From contig JAICOJ010000004.1 of NCBI GenBank assembly GCA_025930755.1, positions 1 to 64,000 on the forward strand: a DNA stretch of 64,000 nucleotides, given 5' to 3'. The notes under the pieces were generated by a model. It saw nothing but the letters and a program-made list of their open reading frames with translations, was not told where the DNA came from and made no database searches. The stretch is from Gemmatimonadaceae bacterium (lineage in GTDB: Bacteria; Gemmatimonadota; Gemmatimonadetes; Gemmatimonadales; Gemmatimonadaceae). The translations under genes and the position numbers were made by a program. Within the stretch, counting starts at the first letter, position 1. Each line of letters begins with the position of its first letter. Positions 12,659-63,994 of this stretch are shown one piece after another.

Positions 12659-13213
12659 ATGAAGCGCGTCGTTTCGTTGTTTGCGGCCGTGACCATGACC
12701 GTCGTCATGGGTGCCAGCGCCGCCGAAGCGCAAAGTCCGATTCGGTTTGGCCTCGCGGGCGGGTTGTCGATGCCGCAGTCAGACCTTGGGGACGCGTTCG
12801 AGAGCGGATTCCACGGTCAAGTGATGCTCGGCTTCGGCATGATGGCGTTGCCGGTCAAACTGCGCGCGGATCTCACGTACCACAGCCTGGGTGTCGAAGG
12901 CGACGGCGGAATCATCTTCGATGACGATGATGATCTTCGCGTGATCAGCGGTGCGCTCAACGCGATCATCGGCATGGGTGGCATTGGCGTGAAGCCGTAC
13001 CTCACGGGTGGCGTCGGCCTCTACAACTCGAAGTTCGGTGACTTTGATGCCGAGAATGATTTCGGCCTCAATGGTGGTGTAGGTCTCGAGTTCAGCCTCA
13101 CCGGCATGAGCACGTTCCTCGAAGTCCGGTACATCAAGATCTTCGTGGGCGATGATGACGGTGATGACTTCAGCGCCGCGCTCGTGCCGATCACGTTCGG
13201 GATCATGTTCTAA
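12659..13213 (+). CDS. Small outer-membrane beta-barrel protein
   Basis: A 184-residue exported protein. Residues 1-24 form a Sec signal (KR, a hydrophobic core, then AEA before QSP). The rest has alternating hydrophobic/polar strands, many glycines and a final aromatic-ending strand (ITFGIMF) that suits a BAM-assembled 8-stranded barrel of the OmpX/OmpW size class. Asp-rich turns (FDDDDDL, GDDDGDD) could bind cations or face outside. AAGGAGAG lies before the ATG. I cannot name the family. A 23-bp inverted repeat begins at its stop codon and forms a terminator with heptamer arms. Confidence 0.75.
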   Translation: MKRVVSLFAAVTMTVVMGASAAEAQSPIRFGLAGGLSMPQSDLGDAFESGFHGQVMLGFGMMALPVKLRADLTYHSLGVEGDGGIIFDDDDDLRVISGALNAIIGMGGIGVKPYLTGGVGLYNSKFGDFDAENDFGLNGGVGLEFSLTGMSTFLEVRYIKIFVGDDDGDDFSAALVPITFGIMF

Positions 13214-13349
13214 AGCGGCTGCGAGCTGCGAACTACGGCCCCCGGGGAGCTACGAGCCCCGGGGGCTTTTAGTTCGCAGTTCGCAGTTCGCAGCTCGCAG
13301 CTCGCAGCTCGCAGTTCGCAGTTCGCAGTTCGCAGCTCGCAGCCGCTTT
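13212..13349 (+). repeat. Heptamer array with inverted arms around a terminator (locus A)
   Basis: The left arm 13212-13234 begins inside the stop codon of the barrel gene and is perfectly complementary to 13327-13349 (23 bp). Inside lies a terminator, GCCCCCGGGG (13238-13247) with its complement at 13257-13266, then TTTT. From 13271 the right side is a tandem array of about eleven 7-base units, AGTTCGC and AGCTCGC in the order three, three, three, one, then a variant. The left side has about two complementary units. Confidence 0.9.
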
Positions 13350-14768: not shown

Positions 14769-15500
14769 ATGCGACAGACATTCACTGGTCGATTGGTGGC
14801 CGCGGTGCTGGTGGGCGCGCTGCTGGCCCCCTCGACCGTTCGCGCACAATACCGGGGCTTCGATGAGCCACGAGGTCCGAGCCGCGCCTTCGCCGGCATC
14901 CACCTGATGGTGGCCCAGCCGTTAGGCGAGTTCGACGAGTACATCGACTGGGGCGGGGGCATCGGCGGCGAGTTCCTGTACGCCTTCGACAATCAAGGTG
15001 CCTTCGGGCTTCGCGCCCACCTCGGGATCATGATCTACGGTCACGAGACCAAGCGCGTACCGCTGAGCGAAACGCTCGGTCGCATTCGCGTCGATGTCAG
15101 CACGAGCAACAACATCTTCGTCTTTGGGGTGGGTCCACAGGTGATGCTGCCGAGTGGCGCCGTTCGGCCCTACCTGAACGGGACGGTCGGGCTGTCGTAC
15201 TTCTTCACGCGCTCGTCGGTCGAAGGGAGCGCCGACCTGGAGCCATTCGCGAGCTCGACAAACTTCGATGACGCGACCTTCGCATGGGCGGCGGGTGGCG
15301 GTCTGTACATCCCGGTTCGCAAGGGCCGCAAGAACCCGGTGTCGCTGGACATTGGCGCGCAGTACCACGCCAATGGGGAAGCCCGCTATCTCCGTGAAGG
15401 GAGCATTCAGGAAGACGGCACGGGCGACATCTTCTTCGATCCAATTCGCAGCCAGACCAATCTGATCACCTATCGATTGGGGATCACGGTGGGGCTCTAA
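14769..15500 (+). CDS. Outer-membrane beta-barrel protein
   Basis: A 243-residue exported protein. Residues 1-26 are a Sec signal ending VRAQ. The body has regularly spaced amphipathic strands with Gly/Tyr/Phe (FLYAFDNQGAFGLRAHLGI, PYLNGTVGLSYFF, LDIGAQYHANGEARYL) and ends ITYRLGITVGL, which fits an outer-membrane barrel. It follows the barrel-NlpC gene after 66 bases and may be cotranscribed with it. No specific family is recognised. A run of CTGCGAA heptamers begins a few bases after its stop codon. Confidence 0.7.
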   Translation: MRQTFTGRLVAAVLVGALLAPSTVRAQYRGFDEPRGPSRAFAGIHLMVAQPLGEFDEYIDWGGGIGGEFLYAFDNQGAFGLRAHLGIMIYGHETKRVPLSETLGRIRVDVSTSNNIFVFGVGPQVMLPSGAVRPYLNGTVGLSYFFTRSSVEGSADLEPFASSTNFDDATFAWAAGGGLYIPVRKGRKNPVSLDIGAQYHANGEARYLREGSIQEDGTGDIFFDPIRSQTNLITYRLGITVGL

Positions 15501-15503
15501 AAA

Positions 15504-15540
15504 GGCTGCGAACTGCGAACTGCGAACTGCGAACTGCGAA
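15504..15540 (+). repeat. CTGCGAA heptamer array (locus B)
   Basis: Five perfect tandem CTGCGAA units (15506-15540) start five bases after the stop codon of the barrel gene and end in a degenerate sixth unit. This is the same unit, in complementary sense, as locus A. No long right-hand arm is present; GGCGAGCTCCGCC just after could form a small hairpin. Confidence 0.85.
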
Positions 15541-15588
15541 CGGCGAGCTCCGCCTTTCGGGATCTCGCGGTGGCGGTAGAATAGAGCC

Positions 15589-36958: not shown

Positions 36959-37693
36959 TCGCGCCCGATGCGCGATCGTCCCCAGACAACCGCCCCGGCC
37001 GGCCGCCCAGCCGTTGCAGCCCGTCCCGTCATTCGACGGGCGCTCCTCTCCGTCGACGTCGTTCTCTTCACGCCTCATGGGCGCCGCTTGACCGTTCTGT
37101 TGGTCCGCGCGGCAGATCCGCGTGCGCGTGAACGGTGGGAGCTGCCGTGGGATGCCGCCCGGACGGATGAGGCGCTCGATGTCGCCGCCGCCCGCATCGC
37201 CCGATCGGCGTTAGGCGCGGGCGCGGCGTGGACGCGACAAGTGGTCGCGTCGGGTGGCGACCAGCGCCACCCCGGCGAAACCGAATTCTCGATCGCGTAC
37301 CTTGGGCTCGTGCCCGCGGGCACGCCACCGCCGGTCGGTGGCGAGGCGAGCTGGTTCCCGCTCGATGAGATTCCGCCGGTGGCGCCTCGGCACCGCGCCA
37401 TGGTGGATTCCGCTCTCGGCATGCTTCGTCTGGAACTCGATCAGTCCCCTGTCGCATTCCGGTTACTTCCCCCGACCTTCACGCTGAGCCAACTCCAGGA
37501 GGTGTACGAGGTCTTGCTCGGCCGCAAGCTGCACAAGGCGAGCTTCCGTCGCGCACTTCACGCAGCATGGCTCGTGGAGCCTATAGATGAATGGCGGAGC
37601 GAAGGCCGAGGCCGGCCCGCACAATTGTTCCGCTACGCGCCGAAGAAGAGACGGACGAGTCGGCGGGGTGTGAGGTTCGATCTGTTAGGATAG
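36950..37693 (+). CDS. NrtR-type Nudix-domain transcription regulator
   Basis: A 247-residue protein with two domains. Residues 25-150 are a Nudix-like fold (SVDVVLFTPHGRRLTVLLVR, GGDQRHPGETEFSIAYLGL, ASWFPLDEIPPV), but the catalytic Nudix box GX5EX7REUXEEXGU is not recognisable, as in NrtR regulators that bind ADP-ribose without strong hydrolysis. Residues 160-235 are the C-terminal winged helix (LLPPTFTLSQLQEVYEVLLG, LHKASFRRAL, GRPAQLFRYA). NrtR proteins repress NAD biosynthesis genes. No NAD gene is adjacent. GTG 36950 or ATG 36968 may start it. A heptamer-arm terminator begins at its stop codon. Confidence 0.82.
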   Translation: MTNSRPMRDRPQTTAPAGRPAVAARPVIRRALLSVDVVLFTPHGRRLTVLLVRAADPRARERWELPWDAARTDEALDVAAARIARSALGAGAAWTRQVVASGGDQRHPGETEFSIAYLGLVPAGTPPPVGGEASWFPLDEIPPVAPRHRAMVDSALGMLRLELDQSPVAFRLLPPTFTLSQLQEVYEVLLGRKLHKASFRRALHAAWLVEPIDEWRSEGRGRPAQLFRYAPKKRRTSRRGVRFDLLG

Positions 37694-37854
37694 GGGTCAG
37701 GGGTCAGGAGTCAGGAGTCAGGGGTCAGGAGTCAGGGGTCAGGGATGGAAAGGGGCCGCGGCGCTTCGCGCCTGCGGCCCACATCAGATGAGCGCGGCAG
37801 CTTCGCTGCCGCGCTTTGCCATCCCGACCCCTGACCCCTGACTCCTGACCCCTA
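37690..37854 (+). repeat. Heptamer array with inverted arms, three-way junction (locus D)
   Basis: Left units AGGGGTC and AGGAGTC (37692-37747, eight copies) begin at the stop codon of the NrtR-type gene. Right units ACCCCTG and ACTCCTG (37826-37854) are complementary. Between them are two hairpins, GGGCCGCGGCGC...CGCCTGCGGCCC (37754-37780) and AGCGCGGCAGC/GCTGCCGCGCT (37791-37815, perfect 11 bp), with GGGATGG (37743-37749) and CCATCCC near 37819-37825 closing the junction. This is a Y-shaped fold about 165 bases long. Confidence 0.9.
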
Positions 37855-45724: not shown

Positions 45725-47329
45725 ATGACGACGAGTATTCGTCCCTTTGCGGCGTTTACGGCGCCGGGGCCCGTTGGGTCCCGGCGCCCCGTCGTCTTTC
45801 TGGGTGAAGCGCGCGAGCATGAGCGCGCAGGTCGCGTGGTCGAAGCGATCAAGTGCTACGAGTCGGCGATCGAGAACGCCGAGCCCACGATCGACGGGCC
45901 TGTGCTCGCCGAAGCGCTGCGCCGCCTCGGCGTCGTCAGGCGCCGTCGCCACGAGTACGACCAGGCGATCGCGCTCTGTCAGCGCAGCTACGAGGTCGCG
46001 ATGGCGCGCAACGATGGGCTGCTCGCCGCCGAAGCGCTCAACGGCATTGCGCTCGTGCACGTCGAGCGTGGCGAATGGTCACAGGCCCGCGAGCGCCTGC
46101 GTCGCGCCCTCGAGCTCGGTGCGGAGAGCAAGGAGCTCGTGGGTCGCATCGAGCAGAACCTCGGCATCATGGCAAACATCCACGGCGATCTCGCTGCGGC
46201 GATGAATCACTACCGCCGGTCCCTCGACGCGTTCCGTCAAGGTCGCGACGAGCGCGGCTGCGCCATTGCGTATCACAACCTCGGCATGCTGAGCGCGGAC
46301 CAGCGTCTCTGGGATGACGCCGAGCAGTACTATCGCGCGAGCCTCGACGTCGCCGAGGCAACGGGCGACGTCCACCTCCGCGGACACGTGCTGCTGAATC
46401 GGACCGAGGTTCACCTGGCCCGATCGCGGTTCGAGCCCGCGCGTCAGGACGCCGAGGAGGCACTGCGCATCTTCGACTCGCTCGGAATGGCGGGCGGGAA
46501 GTCGAGCGCCTATCGGTTTCTCGGGATGGTGTATCGGGAGACTGGACGCACGACGCTCGCCGAGGCGCGTCTTCGGTCCGCGGTTCAGCTGTCGGCGGGG
46601 GTAGGTGCCGCGCTCGATGAGGCGGAAGCGTCCCGCGAACTGGCGCTGCTGTACCAGGGCCTGGGACGGAGTCAGGAAGCGTTGCGACTGCTGAACATGT
46701 CGCACCGTCTCTTTCGCCGCCTCGATGCGCGCGTCGATCTCGTCGACGTCAAGGCGAAGGTGGGACATCTCGAGAGCGTGTACCTCGAGATCGTGCGGGA
46801 ATGGGGACGCTCGATCGAATCGAGCGACACGTACACACACGGGCACTCCGAGCGTGTCGCGACCTACGCCGCCTCGCTGGCGGCGGCGATGGGCCTCGAC
46901 GAGACGGAGCTGCAGACCATCCGCGTTGGCGCGTATCTCCACGACCTCGGCAAGGTGAAAATTCCGCACGAGATCCTGAACAAGCCGGGCCGCCTGACGA
47001 ACGAAGAGTTCGACGAGATGAAGCGTCACCCGGAATACGGGATCGAGCTGCTGGCGTCCGTCGAGTTTCCGTGGGACATTCGCCCACTGATCCGCTCACA
47101 CCACGAGAAGCTCGATGGCTCCGGCTATCCCGATCGCCTCCGTGGCGATGAGATCCCGCTGACGGCGCAGCTGATCTGCATCGTGGATGTCTACGATGCG
47201 CTGACGACGACCCGCTCCTACCGTGGTGCGATGTCGCACCAGACGGCGGTCGACGAAATGATTCGAAGCGAGCGGTGGTGGAGGACCGACGTGATGGCGG
47301 GATTCAGGGCCAGCGTTGGAAACGCATAA
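45725..47329 (+). CDS. TPR protein with HD-GYP phosphodiesterase domain
   Basis: A 534-residue cytoplasmic signalling protein. Residues 25-335 contain about seven or eight TPR-like helical repeats (AGRVVEAIKCYESAIENAEP, AIALCQRSYEVAMARNDG, RRSLDAFRQGRDERGCAIAY). Residues 360-525 are an HD-GYP domain: HGHSERVATYAASLA, HDLGK (406-410) and HHEKLDGSGYP (459-469). This family degrades cyclic di-GMP, and the GYP motif is intact. The TPR part probably senses a partner protein. Its stop codon is immediately followed by heptamer arms. Confidence 0.9.
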   Translation: MTTSIRPFAAFTAPGPVGSRRPVVFLGEAREHERAGRVVEAIKCYESAIENAEPTIDGPVLAEALRRLGVVRRRRHEYDQAIALCQRSYEVAMARNDGLLAAEALNGIALVHVERGEWSQARERLRRALELGAESKELVGRIEQNLGIMANIHGDLAAAMNHYRRSLDAFRQGRDERGCAIAYHNLGMLSADQRLWDDAEQYYRASLDVAEATGDVHLRGHVLLNRTEVHLARSRFEPARQDAEEALRIFDSLGMAGGKSSAYRFLGMVYRETGRTTLAEARLRSAVQLSAGVGAALDEAEASRELALLYQGLGRSQEALRLLNMSHRLFRRLDARVDLVDVKAKVGHLESVYLEIVREWGRSIESSDTYTHGHSERVATYAASLAAAMGLDETELQTIRVGAYLHDLGKVKIPHEILNKPGRLTNEEFDEMKRHPEYGIELLASVEFPWDIRPLIRSHHEKLDGSGYPDRLRGDEIPLTAQLICIVDVYDALTTTRSYRGAMSHQTAVDEMIRSERWWRTDVMAGFRASVGNA

Positions 47330-47330
47330 G

Positions 47331-47434
47331 AACTGCGAACTGCGAACTGCGAACTGAAACCCTCGGGAAGCTACCGCCGCCACTGGTAACCTCCCGAGGG
47401 TTTTAGTTCGCAGTTCGCAGTTCGCAGTTCGCAG
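47331..47434. repeat. Heptamer array with inverted arms around a bidirectional terminator (locus C)
   Basis: Left units AACTGCG (47331-47355, three and a half copies) begin two bases after the HD-GYP stop. A 12-bp stem (47357-47368 with 47392-47403) closes a terminator ending in TTTT. Right units AGTTCGC (47405-47432, four copies) complement the left arm over at least 25 bp. The right side leads into the stop of the convergent gene at 47437, so the structure serves both directions. Confidence 0.92.
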
Positions 47435-51831: not shown

Positions 51832-51986
51832 GAATGAGGAACGAGGGACGAGGAACGAGGAAGTTGATTGAATGGCTTCCTCAGGGGAAGCCTATCCGGG
51901 GGCAACCCTTTTCCCCCGTTGCACTTCCTCGGTCCTCGCCGCTCGTTCCCTCGTTGTCCCCCGCAATCCGCATTCCGCTTTCCGCC
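51832..51986 (-). repeat. Two heptamer arrays with inverted arms downstream of the Rep-like gene (locus E)
   Basis: Left units GAACGAG/GGACGAG (51832-51866) pair with 51924-51947 (21 of 24 bases complementary). Between them lie two hairpins, GGCTTCC/GGAAGCC (51874-51880 with 51886-51892) and GGGGG/CCCCC (51898-51902 with 51913-51917), so the fold is again Y-shaped. A second array GCAATCC, GCATTCC, GCTTTCC follows at 51963-51983, immediately before the 3' end of the minus-strand Rep-like gene. Confidence 0.85.
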
Positions 51987-51996
51987 TTAGAGGCCC

Positions 51997-52848
51997 TCAG
52001 GCCGCCCTCGAGGCCAGGACATAGTCGACGTACCACTGCCTCTTTTGCTGCCGGACGGCCACGTCCCGGAGGAGTCCGGCCTCGATGAGCATCTCGTGGG
52101 CGGGCTGCAGCACGCGCTGGAGGTGCGAGGGGTACCGCTGTGTGAGTGGGAGCTGAAGCGCGAGCTGCTCCAGGCCGACGCGCCACGTTACCGTACCTTC
52201 GACGCGGGCGACCTCGAGCAGGCGGTAGAGTCGGCGAGCAACGGGGGAGGAGAGCTCGAGGTAGTGATTGGCGGACAGGGAAACGGTGTGCCCCGCGTTC
52301 ACGTTGGCGCGTATCAGCGGGGACAGCGCGACCCGAGCGACGCCCGGCTCCGAGACCGTCAGGGTCGGGAAGAGCGTGAGCTGGTCGCGGTCGGCCCCCC
52401 GGCGCCGATCGATCGAGACGGCGGTGAGCAGGGGGAAAGCGGCGTCGATCGCTTCACCAGCAGTGGCGCTCCAGTAAGCGGCCTGCGACTCGAGAGTGGT
52501 CCGCTCGAGCCGCATGAGCGCCGAGCGCAACTGCTCGTAGGTGCGTCCATCGACGCGGCGTCCCATCGAGCGCAGGAACGCATGGAGTGTGAATGTGATG
52601 ACCCCGTCGTCGGGGCAGCTGGCTTCGTTCCACCGGTGCCAGAGCTCGACGTAGACGTCCTGGTCGAAGGTTCCGGGGAGGCGGTCGCCAGGACTCGGCA
52701 GCACACGCCACCGTCCCCCCGCCGGCGGCTCGTACGCGATGACGGAATCCTCAGCGGAATCACTCAGCCGGAAGAGCGGAAGCGCTTCGAGCGAGCGATC
52801 GAGGACGATCGTTCGCGCGCCGGTTCGGCGTCGTGCCGCGAGGGACAT
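51997..52848 (-). CDS. Plasmid-type replication initiator-like protein
   Basis: A 283-residue protein resembling the replication initiator protein A family. LPLFRLSDSAEDSVIAYEP, then VLPSPGDRLPGTFDQDVYVELWHRW, VITFTLHAFLRSMGRR, TYEQLRSALMRLERTTLESQ and LSSPVARRLYRLLEVARVEG give a two-winged-helix pattern. Such proteins bind iterons at plasmid origins. No iterons are seen here and the neighbours are ordinary chromosomal genes, so it may be a domesticated or transferred copy. It is enclosed by inverted heptamer arrays on both sides. ATG at 52848. Confidence 0.68.
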   Translation of the reverse strand: MSLAARRRTGARTIVLDRSLEALPLFRLSDSAEDSVIAYEPPAGGRWRVLPSPGDRLPGTFDQDVYVELWHRWNEASCPDDGVITFTLHAFLRSMGRRVDGRTYEQLRSALMRLERTTLESQAAYWSATAGEAIDAAFPLLTAVSIDRRRGADRDQLTLFPTLTVSEPGVARVALSPLIRANVNAGHTVSLSANHYLELSSPVARRLYRLLEVARVEGTVTWRVGLEQLALQLPLTQRYPSHLQRVLQPAHEMLIEAGLLRDVAVRQQKRQWYVDYVLASRAA

Positions 52849-52890
52849 GGAGACAAACTGGACTCCGCAGGGTGGAGAGTCCAGTGATCG

Positions 52891-52968
52891 GATTGCGGAT
52901 GGCGGACGGCGGATTGAGGACGACGTGCTACTAATCGGTCACAATCAGCAATGCGCACTCCGCAATTC
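52891..52968. repeat. Heptamer arrays upstream of the Rep-like gene (locus F)
   Basis: Units GATTGCG, GATGGCG, GACGGCG, GATTGAG (52891-52918) are followed after 28 bases by GCAATGC, GCACTCC, GCAATTC (52947-52967), partly complementary. The right part ends three bases before the stop of the minus-strand SDR gene. The same GCNNTCC family of units occurs at 51963-51983 on the other side of the Rep-like gene, in the opposite sense. Confidence 0.82.
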
Positions 52969-59804: not shown

Positions 59805-59986
59805 GATTCAGAGTTCAGACTTCCGATTGCCGGCTGTCTGCATCCACCCACGGAGCAATCTGGTCCTTCCCGCGGGATCCGCGTCTCTCCTGTACCTGGA
59901 TGCCGGCCTCGCACAATCGCGACGGGGCTCAAAGCAGCTACGGGGAGCCGCACTGGCTCCCCGTTTGGTTGCTGAATTTTGAAATC
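59805..59986. repeat. Degenerate heptamer arms around a terminator (locus G)
   Basis: Left units ATTCAGA, GTTCAGA, CTTCCGA (59806-59826) are partly complementary to TGAATTTTGAAATC (59973-59986) over about 14 bases with a bulge. A 10-bp stem ACGGGGAGCC/GGCTCCCCGT (59940-59949 with 59955-59964) forms the terminator. This lies in the 219-base gap between the convergent Lhr and MerR genes. The middle of the gap (59827-59939) shows nothing else I can identify. Confidence 0.7.
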
Positions 59987-63937: not shown

Positions 63938-63994
63938 CAGAATAGAGAATACAGAATTCAGAAACGGACACGGGGAGCCAAGGTCGGCTCCCCG
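63938..63994. repeat. Heptamer array and hairpin at window edge (locus H)
   Basis: Units CAGAATA, GAGAATA, CAGAATT, CAGAAAC (63938-63965) precede a 9-bp stem CGGGGAGCC/GGCTCCCCG (63971-63979 with 63986-63994). The hairpin is almost the same as that of locus G. The complementary arm would lie outside the window. Confidence 0.7.

Follow-up and report, generated by a model that had tools for sequence, protein, structure and literature searches.

The 7-base tandem arrays in the window, a stretch of 64,000 nucleotides of Gemmatimonadaceae DNA, are probably the ends of dispersed elements, and the protein encoded by full-length copies of such elements likely recognises its particular repeat unit and causes full-length and gene-less copies to insert behind stop codons. 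This protein, IVP, belongs to PF05635 (23S_rRNA_IVP / S23), a family of four-helix-bundle proteins. The reading is built on the observed architecture of the elements, the match between the main repeat units and IVP genes in the genome that contains the window, filled and empty sites in plasmids, and placement at stop codons. That genome (G000; the window is on contig C78) is a 4.27-Mb draft in 275 contigs, and G150 is a genome of the same genus.

Heptamer arrays in the window

The original prediction listed 7-base arrays at eight loci. Tandem Repeats Finder and our own period scan recovered arrays at seven of them (13271, 15506, 37692/37826, 47330/47405, 51832-51836, 52889 and 63938), whereas at 59805 neither method found an array and about 2.5 loose units could be seen by eye. 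Inverted arms, predicted for most loci, were present at loci A, C and D; the right arms of E and H were degenerate (by eye), B had a single arm and F was weak. The perfect 23-bp arm described at locus A was exact, 13212-13234 being the reverse complement of 13327-13349, and the arrays of loci A to D indeed start inside a stop codon or within 6 nt of one. The features are:

13212..13234 (+): locus A left arm, GCGAACT family, begins within the stop codon TAA 13211-13213
13235..13270 (+): locus A core, GC-rich hairpin then TTTT, terminator-like by eye
13271..13349 (-): locus A right array and outer end, about 10 units AGTTCGC/AGCTCGC
15506..15546 (+): locus B lone arm, GCGAACT family, 5 nt past the stop at 15500
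37692..37744 (+): locus C left arm, AGGRGTC family, overlapping the TAG stop that ends at 37693
37745..37825 (strand.): locus C core
37826..37853 (-): locus C right arm, GACCCCT
47330..47356 (+): locus D left arm, GCGAACT family, immediately past the stop at 47329
47357..47404 (+): locus D core, A-tract, hairpin and T-tract in that order, terminator-like by eye
47405..47434 (-): locus D right arm, AGTTCGC
51832..51862 (+): locus E left arm, GGAACGA family
51924..51955 (-): locus E degenerate right arm, CTTCCTCG...CTCGTT, read by eye
51961..51985 (-): second array next to locus E, GGATTGC-like family
52889..52914 (+): locus F weak array, GGATTGC-like family
63938..63963 (+): locus H left arm, CAGAATT family, followed by a core hairpin; degenerate right arm beyond the window end (L386, by eye)

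Loci A to D are all downstream of protein genes. The window holds gene-less copies only, and none of the 10 PF05635 places in G000 is on its contig. A gene for PF10134 replication initiator protein A (window 51997-52848) lies between loci E and F.

Excess and placement of period-7 arrays

The main sample comprised 825,316 bases, namely the window and 40 stretches partly picked from contigs known to carry repeats, a selection that applies to the G000 and the G150 stretches. It contained 127 period-7 arrays, 117 of them intergenic according to a crude self-written gene caller, whose errors are inherited by all gene counts and distances. Period 9 gave 22 arrays and the remaining periods from 4 to 17 at most 5 each, except for the harmonic 14 (68); among periods 4 to 18 other than 7 and 14, the count stayed at or below 22 in these 825 kb. 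In 437 kb there were 50 period-7 arrays, compared with none in one Markov shuffle, and 0-5 arrays for each other period from 3 to 24 apart from the harmonics 14 and 21.

At a lower threshold, 152 arrays resolved into 58 paired elements and 36 singles, the main classes being GCGAACT (38 arrays), GGAACGA (35), AGGAGTC (31), AGGGGTC (18) and CAGAATT (6). Two of the 58 paired-arm elements lay inside called genes, and no neighbouring pair in G000 had the pyrimidine-rich arm first. A stop codon was present within 30 nt of 44 of the 58 paired elements, compared with 59 of 498 random intergenic placements (Fisher p ~1e-24), and this bias, a check named beforehand, showed that placement is not random. 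Start codons lay within 30 nt of 14/58 pairs and 61/498 random placements. Convergent gene pairs were enriched (16/51 elements vs 49/328), and divergent pairs showed no significant difference (6/51 vs 72/328; p 0.13). The common period, differing units, kept pairing and stop-codon placement together favour a shared copying process over chance, as had been suggested.

The type of stop codon was considered as a target and rejected: within 10 nt, TAG accounted for 21/56 and TGA for 25/56, compared with 147/641 and 398/641 overall, which is only a mild preference. A few arrays lay inside called coding regions (L049 14749-14783, L032 10146-10212 and L043 5937-5998), and at L049 14749 the G150 stretch carries a different unit in the same place. 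At a contig start (L223 1-260) the palindrome extends 25 bp past the arms, probably through an assembly fold-back.

Full-length copies carry an IVP gene

PF05635 matched at 10 places in G000 and 5 in G150. At L049:13185-13704, a 520-bp element consists of AGGAGTC arms flanking a PF05635 ORF; among the ORFs searched between these arms, no other could be assigned to a family. This element is situated between two minus-strand genes, and its 1075-aa neighbour resembles, by eye, an error-prone DnaE. The arrays beside IVP at the G000 and G150 places are:

L091, L093 (G000): AGGAGTC arms on either side
L098 (G000): CAGAATT arms on either side
L102, L103 (G000): GCGAACT-type arrays on either side, the consensus units of L103 being too unlike for the arm test
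L104, L105 (G000 contig ends, near-identical fragments by eye): GGAACGA array on the single visible side
L100 (G150): GCGGATT arms on either side
L096, L097, L099, L101 (three of these in G000, with IVP between nine-base arms): nine-base arrays
L094: eight-base array
L095: period-14 array

L092 was the sole place in the two genomes with no array by IVP. The four heptamers adjoining IVP in G000 are the four commonest families of the G000 sample (AGGAGTC and AGGGGTC pooled), out of 1,172 possible classes; every main G000 heptamer therefore has an IVP gene next to it. This match does not reflect elements counting themselves, because only two AGGAGTC IVP copies fall inside the array sample. Those two copies (L091/L093) differ with dN 0.026 and dS 0.363, and IVP is thus under purifying selection. 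Gene-less copies are far more numerous in G000 than copies with an IVP gene.

Dispersed copies and turnover of the unit

With two 20-kb stretches as queries, the elements at L035:19338-19489 and L049:9827-9954 matched dozens of places in G000 and G150. The copies are about 120-150 bp long and span arms and core, and whole elements, core and arms together, are about 72-93% identical between dispersed copies. The element of window locus C (G000:C78:37712-37853) is among the matches to other dispersed AGGRGTC copies. Exact three-unit matches of GCGAACT occurred in two of 150 phylum-sample genomes (163 in G000 and 3 in the other), GGRGTCA in 7 of the 179 family genomes (G000 among them), and GGAACGA had 36 matches in G000 and a single one in G150. 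Given this limited spread, these unit families look young and lineage-bound. A reversed control pattern matched 21 times, on a single strand, in genome G026, which is therefore likely to hold a further heptamer family of its own.

Presence of the family in a related genome held in part: G150 has armed hairpins and GGRGTCA is common there (52 matches), but GGAACGA occurs only that once and other units and a nine-base period are found. At 13 sites with common flanks, where G150 is 74-89% identical to G000, G150 had a period-7, 8 or 9 array at 9 and a perfect inverted arm of at least 8 bases at 10, and the units mostly differed between the two genomes (by eye). The site at L049:7471 was empty in G150 (154 vs 8 bases). 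In-place turnover fits this pattern better than simple new insertions, and copies may be replaced in place and retained for some local purpose, for example to end or protect transcripts. Parallel nine-base arrays are present (for example ACCTCGAGC, 15 arrays in the G150 sample L186-L205) and also surround IVP genes (G000 L096, L099, L101).

It is known that 23S intervening sequences replace 23S tetraloops. Insertion into native hairpin loops was examined for 57 elements, of which 6 scored at least 7, compared with 1.1% of swapped controls; it was rejected as a general rule because the outer ends common to the strong cases belong to the elements themselves (CAGAATT and AGGAGCT types, by eye), and one case is a palindrome at a contig end. 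Mirror copying of unit variants within an element was also rejected, the mean rank of the partner arm being 6.19 for AACTGCG and 6.65 for AACGAGG (6.00 expected for each). In the same test the own partner arm ranked better for AGGRGTC (mean 6.50, expected 9.50), a result on which we base no claim.

IVP loci across bacteria

We examined PF05635 loci of named genomes, taking the best 80 of at least 548, which span Acidobacteria, Planctomycetota, Proteobacteria, Cyanobacteria, Chloroflexi, a Treponema and others. These 80 had 81 period-7 arrays no farther than 250 bp from the IVP match (20.4 per 10 kb), compared with 1.42 per 10 kb farther out, and other periods from 4 to 15 gave at most 6 arrays each near IVP except for the harmonic 14. 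Two-sided complementary arms were found at 35 of the best 80, 17 of 29 phylum loci and 9 of 15 genus loci, or 61/124 in total; since L110 is the L094 locus and L147 the L097 locus, this equals 60/122 distinct loci. The controls gave 1/137 distant placements and 1/207 short G000 genes. Where arrays lay on both sides, the units were complementary in 34 of 36 loci, compared with 143 of 2,259 swapped pairs. The leading arm had more G than C in 52 of the 61 armed loci. The best 80 of at least 548 also included 29 loci with no arms by the test, 16 with one arm, and 14 with no period-7, 8 or 9 array. No Rfam match was found in 16 IVP loci checked.

PF05635 was present in 131 of 249 phylum genomes and in none of 14 control genomes. 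Samples of ten same-family genomes without IVP, 322,568 bases in all, were free of period-7 arrays; ten genomes with at least 8 IVP copies held 12 in 269,554 bases, counted anywhere, genic or intergenic (p ~8e-5 vs the IVP-free genomes). These came from 7 of the 10 IVP-rich genomes, the other three having none in their small samples, and the 269,554 bases included one IVP ORF. In 400 kb of Moorena there were 167 period-7 arrays, compared with at most 22 for any other period from 4 to 13, and the units beside three of six examined Moorena IVP loci were also among its dispersed units.

The family of Silanimonas lenta (G341; Lysobacteraceae in NCBI) allowed fixed sites to be compared. PF05635 occurred in 64 of its 149 genomes, with a single match, mostly at shared sites, in 49 of the 64. 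Thirty loci fell into four groups with both flanks in common and two singletons, with both arms at 19, one at 3 and none at 8. In a group of nine, all were armed, with CGGGACT at four, CGGGACC at three, and a GGGGACC type and CGGGATT, and the two arms agreed within each locus by eye except for the mixed L366. The unit can therefore change in both arms together while the site stays fixed. Dispersed CGGGAYY triplets were found in 8/8 genomes searched of these nine (13-198 per genome; none for the reversed control). All but two listed copies in G430 had the CGGGACT of its IVP arm, G456 had 35 dispersed matches of a mixed unit, and of the 163 dispersed matches in G402, whose IVP arms read CGGGACC, the 15 listed read CGGGACT. 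Because of G402 and G456, the match between IVP and dispersed units is not strict.

Relation of the arrays to terminators

The original prediction placed the arrays around terminators, and this part stands weakly: the cores of loci A and D are terminator-like by eye, but TTTT was present in the last 25 bases of only 5 of 58 cores. Locus A does not count among the 58 pairs, its short left arm having failed the array test. The arrays could be made by slippage and kept because they lengthen terminator stems, giving stronger terminators or protecting 3' ends. Proximity to stop codons in 44/58 elements, the enriched convergent pairs (16/51 vs 49/328), the cores of A and D and the persistence of inverted arms at 10 of the 13 sites common to G150 despite sequence turnover would all agree with such a role. 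We nevertheless find it decidedly unlikely as the explanation of the arrays, as T-tracts are scarce (5/58), entire elements are dispersed copies, IVP genes are bounded by the same arms and samples of ten IVP-free genomes had no arrays. Selection for terminator-stem extension, proposed earlier as an origin, is not supported, given the lack of a T-tract in most cores and the recurrence of arms and core as dispersed copies. Terminator-type selection may be the reason why copies are retained.

Filled and empty sites in cyanobacterial plasmids

One IVP query matched 23 plasmids, 21 of them cyanobacterial, and a phage search with one IVP query gave no match. A clear period-7 or -8 array lay by IVP in nine of the ten plasmids first examined (on a single side in L260), and L261 had loose arms only, by eye. 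Comparison of related plasmids gave the following sites:

Site A: filled in L259 and L267; without element in L265, L266 and L269
Site B: filled in L274, L275 and L276, where IVP with CAGGAGT-type arms runs from a stop codon to the following ATG; empty, with a three-base gap, in L263 and L270-L273 (five plasmid copies)
Site C: filled in L263; TAATG or a two- or three-base gap in seven others
Sites D, G: cas6-cas4 and an ABC transporter; filled/empty picture, less clean
Sites E, F: ribonucleotide reductase genes and an integrase gene; filled/empty picture repeated

The arms and the IVP gene are therefore gained or lost together. At site A, L268 carries an armed element without IVP whose left junction is identical to that of the filled copies. 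Among 11 comparators lacking IVP or the element, 10 had no period-7 array, and that of L271 is far from the sites. By eye, site B had TTCTA on both sides and site C had ATG, a few to about 40 nt were replaced at sites A, E and F (by eye), and no constant target duplication was found across the plasmid junctions compared. A nested insertion is seen in L276 (Nostoc N6 pNPM1) at about 539-1000, where the IVP gene of one element is broken up by a second armed hairpin.

Gain or loss of IVP and arms as a single block between related plasmids argues against a purely regulatory role, in which IVP would bind heptamer hairpins at mRNA 3' ends and the arrays would spread by recombination and slippage. 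Such a role would suit the orientation rule, with no pyrimidine-rich-arm-first pair in G000 (though 9/61 armed IVP loci break the G-first rule), and the homology of IVP to Avd of diversity-generating retroelements (DGRs), which is noted in PMC10053308 and seen here as a weak match. On balance we consider RNA regulation quite unlikely.

The IVP protein and a candidate mechanism

To our knowledge, no enzyme activity has been described for IVP. Structures are available for two relatives, 2gsc (XCC0516) and 2rld. Residues Q38, R41, S45, N49, E52, S72 and E75 were 99-100% conserved in 149 aligned IVP matches (E up to 1e-5), and Q, S, N, E, S and E were invariant across ten IVPs including divergent ones. 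This conserved polar set hints at a putative active or binding site. Five IVPs matched four-helix-bundle or unnamed NCBIfam models, with one weak match to Avd, and the NCBIfam families found for these five included no transposase model. A passage of PMC4990558 gives IVP/S23 proteins no known function, and its introduction mentions a five-fold assembly, the subject of a title cited in PMC3936711.

The absence of transposase models, together with the excess of gene-less copies over IVP copies, would also suit an IVP that is cargo or a regulator, with both forms moved through their heptamer ends by a trans-acting transposase of another kind. We regard this as unlikely: IVP is the only family-bearing ORF between the arms of the L049 element, it is under purifying selection with near-invariant polar residues, and each main unit family of G000 has its own IVP. 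A reverse-transcription route, as for Avd in DGRs, is suggested by the weak similarity of one IVP in five to the Avd model. Reverse transcriptase PF00078 had no match in G000 and was absent from 12 of 14 IVP genomes (G000, G150 and 10 more) and present in two; this route is mostly refuted in general and very improbable.

We return to IVP as the mobilising protein, which we infer would act in trans on gene-less copies. IVP would recognise an array of its own repeat unit as the end signal, would bind the armed hairpin in the form of either single-stranded DNA or RNA, and would insert full and gene-less copies behind stop codons. A DNA-hairpin route, in which host replication or repair enzymes would be borrowed, is favoured because G000 has no PF00078 reverse transcriptase gene. 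The rival explanations considered above overlap with the preferred reading, and their probabilities need not total one.

The chances seem to us evenly balanced that this is a new class of mobile element without a known transposase or reverse transcriptase, in which a pentameric IVP/S23 protein would read self-specific 7-base (sometimes 8- or 9-base) arrays and copy itself and gene-less hairpins into gene-end junctions, with cyanobacterial and xanthomonad heptamers, 23S intervening sequences and many 'CRISPR-linked' IVP genes as its products. If true, the heptamers of cyanobacteria and Xanthomonas, 23S intervening sequences and CRISPR-locus IVP genes would share one explanation. The link between IVP and heptamers makes both puzzles testable together, by asking whether IVP moves its own unit, and elements that fit a 3-base stop-to-start gap would be useful for the study of operon evolution.

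Relation to known systems

REPIN/RAYT systems consist of short gene-less palindromes dispersed between genes and a cognate gene that has these repeats on both sides. The elements described here resemble them in being dispersed, extragenic and gene-less palindromes (58 pairs, 2 in called genes), and also in the Silanimonas lenta family, where most IVP-bearing genomes (49 of 64) have one copy, mostly at shared sites, but IVP is a four-helix bundle whereas TnpA-REP is a Y1/HUH transposase. Their ends are tandem units of 7 (sometimes 8 or 9) bases that vary by family. For REPIN/RAYT, PMC3733652 describes a tag, GTAG or CGTC, at the foot of the palindrome. Classical IS elements and MITEs differ in that no transposase gene was found between the arms of L049:13185-13704, where IVP is the sole family-bearing ORF among those searched, and Avd systems of DGRs differ in that G000 lacks a PF00078 reverse transcriptase.

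For the Coxiella 23S intervening sequence, PMC4990558 describes tandem heptamers (GACAGAT) just before the S23 ORF and within inverted repeats, uses the term selfish element, and recalls older proposals of mobile intervening sequences. A PF05635 protein between terminal inverted repeats is the shared feature, here confined to full-length copies and not seen in the window; the present elements follow protein genes rather than lying inside rRNA genes, the 16 loci checked being without an Rfam match. IVP in rRNA insertions of CPR bacteria is mentioned in PMC11270868.

Tandem 7-base units in intergenic DNA (117/127 arrays here) are also a feature of STRR and GGGAATC-type repeats. Those of Xanthomonas and Nostoc are described in PMC4692102 as intergenic and on the sense strand near stop codons, with a role still to be elucidated. 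Its account of them favours G-quadruplexes and makes no link to a mobile element or IVP, whereas GCGAACT and GGAACGA have no GGG run. The heptamer TAACTGA forms direct repeats in Beggiatoaceae, with 169 sets in a single genome; these differ in lying mostly upstream of start codons, and PMC4679880 reads them as possible regulator sites. Cyanobacterial heptamer arrays appear as strain fingerprints in PMC5088731, and IVP is among the strain-specific genes in PMC8700078. In the open PMC literature, we found none that joins IVP to dispersed heptamers.

IVP is listed near CRISPR genes in PMC3936711 and PMC10910872, and the former reports 18 IVP genes inside cas operons. IVP and heptamer arrays lie between cas6 and cas4 in plasmids of Anabaena sp. 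90 and Pseudanabaena galeata (L258 1495-1863; L392 827-1186). A Dolichospermum plasmid (L387), 98.8% identical across the 63% that is shared, carries neither an annotated IVP nor a heptamer array at cas6-cas4, and 'CRISPR-associated' IVP genes in cas operons may therefore be insertions, not immunity genes.
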